Source: Oceanobacillus oncorhynchi (GTDB lineage: Bacteria; Bacillota; Bacilli; Bacillales; Amphibacillaceae). Taken from it: a stretch of DNA of 64,000 bases. This document shows positions 21,443 through 49,782 of this stretch, in pieces. The notes below the pieces were generated by a model. It did not search any database. It was not told the origin of the DNA and was given only the letters and a program-made list of their open reading frames with translations. Both the position numbers and the translations under genes were made by a program. The stretch spans positions 3,348,001 to 3,412,000 of the forward strand of contig NZ_CDGG01000001.1 of the NCBI RefSeq assembly GCF_000821065.1, in the 5' to 3' direction. The first letter of the stretch is position 1; every line of letters starts with the position of its first letter.

Positions 21443-21471
21443 TTGCTTTTTTTAGAAAAAAGGCGTATGAT
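21443..21471 (+). promoter_or_regulatory. Sigma-A promoter of the candidate small RNA
   Basis: TTGCTT at 21443-21448, a 17-base spacer and TATGAT at 21466-21471. The expected start, 21478, is the first base of the RNA's closing stem. Confidence 0.65.
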
Positions 21472-21477
21472 AAATTC

Positions 21478-21664
21478 TACAAGCTACATTGTTCGTATCA
21501 ATAAAAGTTTTAACCTCTAATGTTGGAATAGGGAGTTTTACATCGAAATTGAAATGTCGAGCCGTCATAAAGGAATGGAAGACAGGAAGGTTTCTGCGGA
21601 CACCCACTTTGCGAAGTGGTGGTTTAAAACTTTTTATTGCATGGTACGGCAAATGTGGCCTGTA
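21478..21664 (+). ncRNA. Candidate small structured RNA, 6S-like architecture
   Basis: No credible ORF with a ribosome site lies here, but a well-spaced promoter precedes it and a strong terminator follows. The ends pair: 21478-21490 with 21652-21664 (13 positions, one mismatch, one wobble). A second long stem pairs 21499-21515 with 21621-21639, with two single-base bulges. An inner hairpin, CCACTT-TGCG-AAGTGG, lies at 21604-21619. Length about 187 nt, rod shape, paired ends and a side hairpin next to an internal loop recall firmicute 6S RNA, which binds RNA polymerase. The class is an inference by shape; transcription is supported by flanking signals only. Confidence 0.5.
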
Positions 21665-21682
21665 TACATAATTTATTATCCT

Positions 21683-21718
21683 ATCCCGGCAGCGGCCTCG
21701 CTCCCGGGATTTTTATAT
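21683..21718 (+). terminator. Terminator of the small RNA; landing site of the group IIC intron
   Basis: Stem ATCCCGG (21683-21689) with CCGGGAT (21704-21710), inner AGCG/CGCT with loop GCCT, then TTTTATAT. The intron begins at 21719, 8 bases after the stem. Confidence 0.88.
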
Positions 21719-23590
21719 GTGCGCCAGGCATGGCGACTATCTAGGTGGTGGAAATCCACTGTGGAGGTACACATCGACCAACCACTAGAGAAGCGCAAAG
21801 CATTTATCGTGAGGTAAAGGCTGAAGGAAGCGTGTATCAAAATCTTGGCTCGACGAACAGAAATCTGATACGAAGGCTCTGTAGGCGGATAAGGCTCCAT
21901 AACAAGTCAAAATCCAAAAGATGTGCGTAACCCTGCAGAGTAAATTAGGCGAGTAAAAGAGGAAAGATAGTTGTCTTACCCTGGGAGGTCTCACGGACAG
22001 CTGAGGAGTCCCCTAAAAAGAAAGCTGGTCGAAAAAGGTTTATCGTGAGAAGTCAGCCGATGCCGTAGTAGTGATGAAAATCATGAAGGGCTGAACAATT
22101 TATAGTGTTTCTACGCCATGAATGCACGAAGAATAAACTTCTGAATGTGTTAATGATGAAAGTATGAGCGTATCTCAGAGGATAGTCAAAATAGAAGTGT
22201 TCTCCGTCACATGAAAGGAAAGGAAGAAACGAGTGTGGAAATTTTAGAAAAGATTTTAAGCGATCAAAATATGAACGAAGCCTATCTTCGAGTGTACCGA
22301 AACAAAGGTGCAGGTGGGGTAGACGGCGTAACAGTAAATGAACTGAAAGCATACCTAAGGAAACACAAAGAGGAATTGCGAACGCAAATCCAGAAAAGAA
22401 AATACAAACCAATGCCAGCACTGCGCGTAGAAATTCCGAAAGAAAATGGAAAGATGCGCAAATTGGGTATTCCAACAGTGGTTGACAGAGTTGTCCAACA
22501 GGCAATTAGTCAAGTGCTCAGCCCGATATTTGAAAAACAATTCAGTGACTACAGTTATGGTTTCAGACCAAGAAGAAGTTGCGAAATGGCAATCACGCAA
22601 GTATTGGAATATATCAATGACGGATACCAGTGGTTAGTGGATATTGACCTGGAACGATTTTTCGATACTGTCCATCATGATAAGTTAATGCGAATAATCT
22701 CGCACACAATCAAAGATGGTGATGTCATTTCTCTGATACGAAAATACCTCGTAAGTGGTGTGATGGTCGATGGGAAATATGAAGATACAACTATAGGAAC
22801 CCCACAGGGAGGCAACCTTAGTCCACTTCTAAGTAACATTATGTTGAATGAGTTAGATAAGGAACTGGAGGCAAGAGGTCTGCGTTTCGTAAGATACGCA
22901 GACGATAGCCTTATCTTTGTCAAAAGTGAAAAGGCGGCAAATAGAGTTCTTACTTCCATTACAACATTTATCGAAGAGAAACTGGGGCTAAAGGTAAATA
23001 TGGAGAAAAGTAAAATCTCACGCCCTACGAAAACAACATTTCTAGGCTTTGGTTTTTACTATGACTCAAATAAGAGGAAATTTCAACCGAGACCCAGTAA
23101 AACGTCGGTTCAAAAATTCCAAAGGAAACTGCGCCGATTAACAAAGCGAAATTGGAGTATTTCCTTAAACGACAGAATCATCAAGTTAAAACAGGTCATG
23201 TATGGTTGGGTCAACTATTTTAGGGTAGCTAATATGAAGAGCGTTTTAGAGTCTATAGATGCGAAGTTGCGCTCCAGAATAAGAGTAATTATCTGGAAAC
23301 AATGGAAGAACAACAAAAAGAGAATTAAATCTCTCATACAACTTGGTATACCAAAGGAAGAAGCCAAGGGGCTAACCTATTGTAGGAAAGGTTTCCGATT
23401 TACTGGGTTGTCGAAAGTTGTTCAGAGAGCATTGTCTAATAAAAGACTAAAGCAAAGAGGTATCCCCTTTGCCTTAGACCGTTATCTAAAAGTACACACT
23501 GAAATATAAATTGAACCGCCGTATACGGAACCGTATGTACTGGTGGTGTGAGAGGGGCGAAAAGTTATTTAGCTTTTCCCTCTACTCGAT
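21719..23590 (+). mobile_element. Group IIC self-splicing intron
   Basis: 1,872 bp. The 5' end GTGCGCC matches the group II start consensus. A long structured domain I follows, the maturase ORF sits in domain IV, and domain V at 23513-23548 reads GAACCGCC...GTATGTAC...GGTGGTG. Domain VI (GAGAGGGGCG...CCCTCTACTCGAT) ends at 23590. Insertion behind a terminator hairpin, an IEP without HNH endonuclease and the domain V wording are all typical of class IIC, whose best-known member is from Oceanobacillus iheyensis. An extra T at 23541 in domain V is unusual. Boundaries are inferred from consensus and could be off by a base or two. Confidence 0.9.
22211..23509 (+). CDS. ltrA: Group II intron reverse transcriptase/maturase (LtrA family, class C)
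   Basis: A 432-aa intron-encoded protein. The RT domain (about 1-300) shows YGFRPRRSCEMA, DIDLERFFDTV (first catalytic Asp), GTPQGGNLSPLLSNI and the catalytic RYADD at about residues 233-237. The X/maturase domain follows (WVNYFRVANM). There is no HNH endonuclease after it, as expected for class C, which uses hairpin DNA at replication forks. The frame is intact. ATG at 22211 has no clear ribosome site; GTG at 22235 behind GGAAAGGAAG is a real alternative. It assists splicing and retrohoming of its own intron. Confidence 0.92.
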   Translation: MKGKEETSVEILEKILSDQNMNEAYLRVYRNKGAGGVDGVTVNELKAYLRKHKEELRTQIQKRKYKPMPALRVEIPKENGKMRKLGIPTVVDRVVQQAISQVLSPIFEKQFSDYSYGFRPRRSCEMAITQVLEYINDGYQWLVDIDLERFFDTVHHDKLMRIISHTIKDGDVISLIRKYLVSGVMVDGKYEDTTIGTPQGGNLSPLLSNIMLNELDKELEARGLRFVRYADDSLIFVKSEKAANRVLTSITTFIEEKLGLKVNMEKSKISRPTKTTFLGFGFYYDSNKRKFQPRPSKTSVQKFQRKLRRLTKRNWSISLNDRIIKLKQVMYGWVNYFRVANMKSVLESIDAKLRSRIRVIIWKQWKNNKKRIKSLIQLGIPKEEAKGLTYCRKGFRFTGLSKVVQRALSNKRLKQRGIPFALDRYLKVHTEI

Positions 23591-23602
23591 TTTTAAATAA
23601 GC

Positions 23603-25113: not shown

Positions 25114-25150
25114 ATAGGCATTCTTTATTTTTTAACTCAACCCAAAAATG

Positions 25151-25334
25151 AATATTTTTCATATAATCGTGGGGATACGGCCTGCAAGTTTCTACCGGTT
25201 TACCGTAAATAAACTGACTATGGAAAAGTATTAAAAAGCTTGTATTATGTCTGAAAACAATGCACGCTTGCTTGATTATTCGACAAAAAGCTCGAAAATC
25301 TACTTTTTCCATGGTAGATTTTCGGGCTTTTTAA
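25151..25334 (+). promoter_or_regulatory. Guanine (purine) riboswitch with terminator
   Basis: The aptamer (about 25151-25232) contains the invariant blocks CATATAATC, GGATACGGC, GCAAGTTTCTACC and CCGTAAAT, ending GACTATGG. The C in GACTATG is the base that pairs with guanine, so this is the guanine rather than the adenine class. P1 pairs TTTTCAT with ATGGAAAA. The expression platform is a terminator of 16-18 bp (25285-25303 with 25314-25332) followed by T5. Guanine or hypoxanthine binding is expected to favour termination and lower xpt-pbuX expression. Confidence 0.95.
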
Positions 25335-49708: not shown

Positions 49709-49782
49709 GCGGGTGTAGTTTAGTGGTAAAACCTCAGCCTTCCAAGCTGATGATGAGGGTTCGATTCCCTTCACCCGCTCCA
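49709..49782 (+). tRNA. tRNA-Gly (anticodon TCC)
   Basis: 74 bases including an encoded CCA. Acceptor GCGGGTG pairs with CACCCGC, discriminator T, T-arm GAGGGTTCGATTCCCTT, and anticodon arm CAGCCTTCCAAGCTG with TCC. A terminator follows directly. Confidence 0.96.

Follow-up and report, generated by a model that had tools for sequence, protein, structure and literature searches.

A 6S-2 (bsrB-type) RNA gene of Oceanobacillus oncorhynchi, followed by a group II intron

Of the two 6S RNAs of Bacillus subtilis, 6S-2 (bsrB) binds the sigma-A holoenzyme and is a reported template for product RNAs (pRNAs), according to parts of PMC11077062, where aspS is also named as a flank of the 6S-1 gene bsrA. 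The pRNA of 6S-1 is quoted as GUUCGGUCAAAACUA in an excerpt of PMC12005410, and a central bubble collapse helix as well as a hairpin on the 3' side of the central bubble are described for the same RNA (PMC8876501, in part). The hallmarks of the template, as given in sections of PMC8414754, are a GG at pRNA positions 4/5 or 5/6 together with an adenine immediately upstream of the start; these sections also place rarA near 6S RNA genes, B. subtilis 6S-1 included, and report two 6S copies for Oceanobacillus iheyensis.

The window, i.e. the whole stretch of 64,000 nucleotides of Oceanobacillus oncorhynchi DNA that was analysed, yields seven matches in an Rfam 15 scan, one of which is to the 6S RNA family RF00013. 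It covers 21478-21665 on the plus strand with 72.7 bits (gathering score 46.4), extends over model positions 1-187 of 187, and was reproduced on a smaller stretch. The initial annotation had described the region 21443-21718 as a small RNA with its own promoter and terminator, a small hairpin, and an end-paired rod of about 187 nt resembling 6S RNA, and had proposed the search against RF00013. All of these elements are present. The resemblance is borne out by a full-length match above the curated threshold, and the ends of the rod, derived by hand, lie within one base of the model ends. What has to be given up is the novelty implied by the missing family assignment: the RNA at 21478-21665 is an ordinary bacterial 6S gene of an already known family, and two 6S genes had been reported for O. 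iheyensis. We assign a probability of about 97% to the reading that it is a 6S-2 (bsrB-type) gene, one of two 6S genes in this genome, with a B. subtilis-like function by analogy and an adjacent intron that inserted independently. The locus comprises the following features:

21443-21471, plus strand: promoter-like -35 TTGCTT / 17 bases / -10 TATGAT of the 6S-2 gene (from the sequence and the layout in relatives)
21478-21665, plus strand: 6S RNA gene of the 6S-2 (bsrB) type (RF00013 match, copies in the genus, 22 of 53 pairs changed on both sides)
21478-21499, plus strand: closing stem, 5' strand, pairing with 21643-21664 (19 pairs)
21505-21515, plus strand: helix P2 (downstream), 5' strand, pairing with 21621-21632; template of the presumed product RNA
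21516-21530, plus strand: central bubble, 5' side (unpaired in the Rfam alignment)
21518, plus strand: putative product-RNA start (template U); the pRNA would read AGAGGUUAAAACUU (sequence compared with the hallmarks in sections of PMC8414754)
21531-21605, plus strand: apical arm (helices 3 to 6)
21605-21618, plus strand: 3' central-bubble hairpin CACUU-UGCG-AAGUG (conserved sequence; the apical arm includes 21605 as well)
21683-21710, plus strand: intrinsic terminator hairpin with T-rich tail (sequence; separate terminator scan of orthologues)
21719-23591, plus strand: group II intron, not part of the 6S RNA (RF02001 and RF01998 matches; last base perhaps flank)
22211-23509, plus strand: intron-encoded reverse transcriptase/maturase, 432 aa (TIGR04416, 434.6 bits, cut-off 300)

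The genome contains two RF00013 matches (90.4 and 72.7 bits), of which the window copy is the weaker, and exactly two matches occur in each of the 28 genomes of the genus searched, this one included. The 56 genus copies split 28 + 28 by the core of their template region, TGACCGAAC or, in the class of the window, TTTTAACCTC, and every genome has one copy of each class, so that the window gene is a paralogue distinct from 6S-1 within the same genome. The other copy of this genome lies at G000:C1:3790589-3790771. As identified by a family search, it shares its stretch with genes for a RarA-type AAA ATPase (best NCBIfam matches score under the respective cut-offs), an RsfA-family protein, and glutamate dehydrogenase, and with aspS. 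Both copies belong to the same Rfam family and share GGGAG and CACCC blocks. In contrast, their template cores differ, and the TGACCGAAC class would produce an RNA whose first bases resemble those of the 6S-1 pRNA of B. subtilis, GUUCGGUCAAAACUA, quoted in the excerpt of PMC12005410. Because the other copy combines a 6S-1-like template with the aspS/RarA setting, at a locus of its own, we assign the window copy to the 6S-2 type. Membership in the 6S family and separateness from the 6S-1 paralogue near aspS are both shown by computation.

The 28 aligned window-type copies of the genus were used to build a model based on sequence only, as structure tests should stay unbiased by structure in the model. 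This model matches 120 of 159 genomes of the family, 112 of them at E 3.3e-18 or better and eight weakly; 39 are without a match in this search, whose filters lose weak matches at such a size. Four of the eight weak matches were aligned, and all four proved to be 6S-1 genes. From the 112 strong matches, 86 loci (28 of the genus and 58 others) were fetched for comparison. A pattern scan of named genomes found at least 120 stretches, and 80 loci stand among the matches listed; in these, the sequence-only model gives 85 matches. Five of the 80 listed loci (L187, L195, L221, L237, and L239) carry two tandem 6S-2-type matches about 250 to 340 bases apart, and four of the five come from genomes with a species name other than Bacillus cereus. 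In the B. cereus group, 6S genes arranged in tandem are on record (PMC7726162, in part).

Among the named genomes, Bacillus halotolerans links the window to the B. subtilis group. Its match (E 5.9e-33, L200 6113-6284) lies between genes for a RecQ helicase and a flavodoxin-fold protein, a locus that we take to be the bsrB place of this group, the setting in B. subtilis 168 presumably being yocI-bsrB-yocJ. The recQ-side copy of the B. subtilis group is thus matched in sequence via B. halotolerans as a stand-in for B. subtilis 168. The blocks AAGTTTTAACC, AATAGGGAGTTTTA, CACCCACTT, and GTGGTTTAAAAC are common to B. halotolerans and the window, whereas the presumed product-RNA start reads AACCTC instead of AACCTT and the neighbouring genes are others. 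The window gene is preceded by an exonuclease gene and followed by SDR, glyoxalase-like, and xpt genes, i.e. not by the neighbours of bsrB in the B. subtilis group. Gene order downstream is conserved in part, many of the examined relatives having a glyoxalase-like gene, an xpt gene, or both after 6S-2; on the upstream side, the exonuclease and MBL-fold genes of the window adjoin 6S-2 in six further near relatives as well. Synteny is no defining feature of 6S-2 RNA. Further Rfam matches of the window are a purine riboswitch (RF00167, 83.4 bits, 25139-25240) ahead of the xanthine phosphoribosyltransferase gene, and two Bacillaceae-1 RNAs (RF01690, 49906-49973 and 50049-50116) behind a tRNA gene at 49709-49779.

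The proposed promoter TTGCTT-17-TATGAT is present in the sequence, with TTGCTT at 21443-21448 and TATGAT at 21466-21471, separated by 17 bases. Taken by itself it is a weak pair, agreeing with the consensus at 8 of 12 positions, and a consensus promoter/terminator scan listed neither element of the 6S-2 gene, the promoter pair falling below its cut-off. A similar layout recurs upstream of the relatives: scored with a small TTG bonus at the best-scoring placement within a fixed range, at least 8 of 12 consensus positions are found in 79 of the 86 6S-2 loci, compared with 32% of mononucleotide shuffles, and a 17-base spacer likewise occurs in 79 of 86. The predicted terminator is a hairpin with a T-rich tail, and a separate terminator scan finds terminators 3' of 85 of the 86 orthologues, the window included, compared with 9% of shuffles. 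As proposed in the initial annotation, the 6S-2 gene at 21478-21665 retains promoter-like and terminator sequences of its own.

Structure was assessed by covariation in an alignment of 64 sequences (58 family members beyond the genus, five named ones, and the window). An RNAalifold consensus of the 28 genus copies has 56 pairs, seven of which are changed on both sides within the genus. Three of the 56 join bases of the central bubble to the 3' hairpin strand and were left out of the count. In the remaining 53 pairs, 22 are changed on both sides compared with 13.3 in shuffles, the cells changed on both sides number 131 compared with 35.9, and 94.2% of cells are paired compared with 89.9% in shuffles and 42 to 50% when the partner is slid. 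None of 500 shuffles is as high on any of five covariation measures; these shuffles do not preserve the relatedness of the sequences, and because copies of this same type served to derive the structure, the slide control is tilted in its favour. The rod of closing stem, central bubble, and apical arm that characterizes 6S RNA is in this way supported by covariation. With a window-type copy in 28 of 28 genomes, the search of other genus genomes and the covariation test suggested at the outset both turned out in favour of the RNA. A seemingly unassigned RNA is corrected to a known regulator found in all 28 genus genomes searched, and the 6S-2 set across the family (86 fetched, 64 aligned) shows clearly how the second 6S paralogue covaries.

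The bulk of the signal resides in the closing stem and the apical arm, which are conserved by covariation. For the closing stem, which had been proposed with 13 positions starting at 21478, T21478-A21664 is indeed the outermost pair; 8 of its 19 pairs are changed on both sides and 89.3% of cells are paired. In the apical arm, 92.9 to 100% of cells are paired per helix and 11 of 23 pairs are changed on both sides. The second stem, predicted as 21499-21515 with 21621-21639, stands in part: 21505-21515 pairs with 21621-21632 as helix P2, is extendable outwards, and has 97.7% of its cells paired, while it is absent from the minimum-energy fold and its covariation support (3 of 11 pairs changed on both sides) is thin because the changes sit in seven of the 64 sequences (L144-L147 and L149-L151, L148 excepted), all of one genus (g30) and some with a shifted register. 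These double changes may represent one or two events. The UGCG hairpin was located at 21605-21618 and is conserved in sequence, with 96.6% of cells paired over the 64 sequences; none of these shows a change on both sides, which makes covariation uninformative for this hairpin. It is similar to the 3' bubble hairpin of B. subtilis 6S-1 mentioned above. Both stems are kept in relatives that lack the intron, so that the RNA withstands this part of the refutation test named at the outset, again with thinner support for the second. Folding energy of 21478-21665 gives a z of -2.56, with 4 of 200 shuffles as good, and is therefore on its own modest evidence; with the terminator included, z is -3.45. 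Covariation across relatives is the decisive evidence for the structure.

A product RNA started from U21518 would begin AGAGGUUAAAAC and carry GG at positions 4/5, and the base directly upstream of the start, A21519, is an adenine; both features are read from the sequence and agree with the published hallmarks. As the window copy possesses a central bubble, a template, GG at 4/5, and the upstream adenine, the sequence prerequisites of the known mechanism are present, and its function is likely sequestration of sigma-A RNA polymerase with pRNA-driven release. Judging from B. subtilis, 6S-2 RNA would mimic an open promoter, bind the sigma-A RNA polymerase holoenzyme, and keep part of it in reserve. 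Upon stress relief, the polymerase would start at U21518 and, with 6S-2 as template, make a short product of about AGAGGUUAAAACUU, which would unzip helix P2 so that 6S-2 could refold and the polymerase be freed. It is by analogy that we infer RNA polymerase binding, expression, and product RNA for the window copy.

The minimum-energy fold contains a competing helix in place of P2, in which 21527-21540 pairs with 21625-21638 and thereby occupies the P2 3' strand, recalling the central bubble collapse helix known in B. subtilis 6S-1 (PMC8876501, in part). By duplex energy, 73 of 83 sequences (the 86 less three without a motif-search match) prefer it to P2. However, two coevolution tests give it no support. 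In a swap test on 169 sequences (the 86 and 83 of the 85 named-genome matches, the two shortest left out), which came to 148 distinct strand sets once one sequence had been lost to the motif search and perhaps some rows lacking the P2 motif had dropped out, own pairs of the competing helix were no better than swapped ones, 1480 of 2000 permutations doing equally well; for the outer part of P2 the outcome was the same (1874 of 2000). By pair counts, 86.2% of cells were paired compared with 85.8% in shuffles, 114 of 500 shuffles being as high. Since both tests failed, the competing helix is not claimed as an evolved switch, and we treat it as a by-product of conserved sequence. A switch between P2 and this helix would be energetically possible by duplex energy, while covariation lends it no support. 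More far-reaching, leaky termination might allow the 6S-2 promoter to drive the intron, and the competing helix might in addition capture the P2 3' strand when RNA polymerase is released, as the collapse helix does in 6S-1; we regard this combination as unlikely. Leaky termination of this kind, if true, would couple intron expression to the growth-phase control of 6S-2.

The preferred reading, a 6S-2 gene with its own terminator, was weighed against a new small-RNA family that is 6S-like in shape only. The RF00013 score of 72.7 bits is moderate, and a global alignment with the 6S-1 copy of the same genome has 120 identities, 45 mismatches, and 41 gap positions. Yet all 187 model positions are matched above the curated threshold, three named species of Bacillus have the same RNA type with scores between 77.3 and 91.2 bits, and in 28 of 28 genus genomes the window-type copy is paired with a 6S-1-type copy. 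A new family is thus highly improbable and is refuted by the full-length match.

Eight bases separate the terminator hairpin of the 6S-2 gene from the group II intron. This proximity is the point in favour of an RNA that is a leader or accessory RNA of the intron and was placed by it, an idea to which we give practically no weight: the RNA is present in all 28 genus genomes searched, whereas in BLAST comparisons of flanks of 1077 to 2500 bases the intron is absent beside 85 other 6S-2 loci and four 6S-1 loci, the window's own being the sole match of 90, and the five other full intron copies follow other sequences. Intron-free orthologues refute it. Moreover, the joined flanks of the window resemble the intron-free site of a near relative. 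The intron at 21719-23591 is best read as an independent insertion that used the terminator as its landing site and should leave the 6S transcript whole. A short protein gene is just as implausible: open reading frames do cross the region (21489-21671, 21554-21817, and 21452-21652; 60 and 87 aa on the plus strand, 66 aa on the minus strand), but the 87-aa frame extends into the intron, substitutions track base pairing, and alignments of orthologues contain many one- or two-base indels.

The genome has six full copies of the intron, each beginning a few bases downstream of a terminator-like hairpin that carries a T tract. Within the one chromosome, they share 100% rounded identity, and their near-identical sequences point to a recent burst. 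The maturase contains the Pfam domains RVT_1 and GIIM only, and a Pfam search of its 432 aa found no endonuclease domain. Insertion directly behind intrinsic terminators (6/6) and a maturase in which no endonuclease domain is found are features of class C (group IIC) introns in parts of PMC8919778 and PMC4424553. The comparison with class C covers insertion site, general maturase family, and domain content; nearly half of the introns directly behind terminators have other maturase types, e.g. g6, U1, and U2 (PMC8919778, in part), and the endonuclease domain is also lacking in classes D, E, and F (PMC4424553, in part). Among the papers listed in a literature search on 6S RNA, group II introns, and terminators, none seems, from titles and the first lines of abstracts, to describe an intron behind a 6S gene. 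The insertion illustrates neatly how a terminator-targeting retroelement can land behind a non-coding RNA gene and leave the gene uncut.

Two further traces of group II introns were observed. At L073 (G000:C1:1879239-1879319), 81 bases are 94% identical to the 3' end of the intron, apparently a remnant of a related intron that by eye stands ahead of another likely reading frame. At L117 (G086), about 970 bases upstream of the 6S-2 gene of that genome, lies the end of a reading frame with about 33% identity to the window maturase, perhaps from a group II intron of another kind that lies near this 6S-2 gene.
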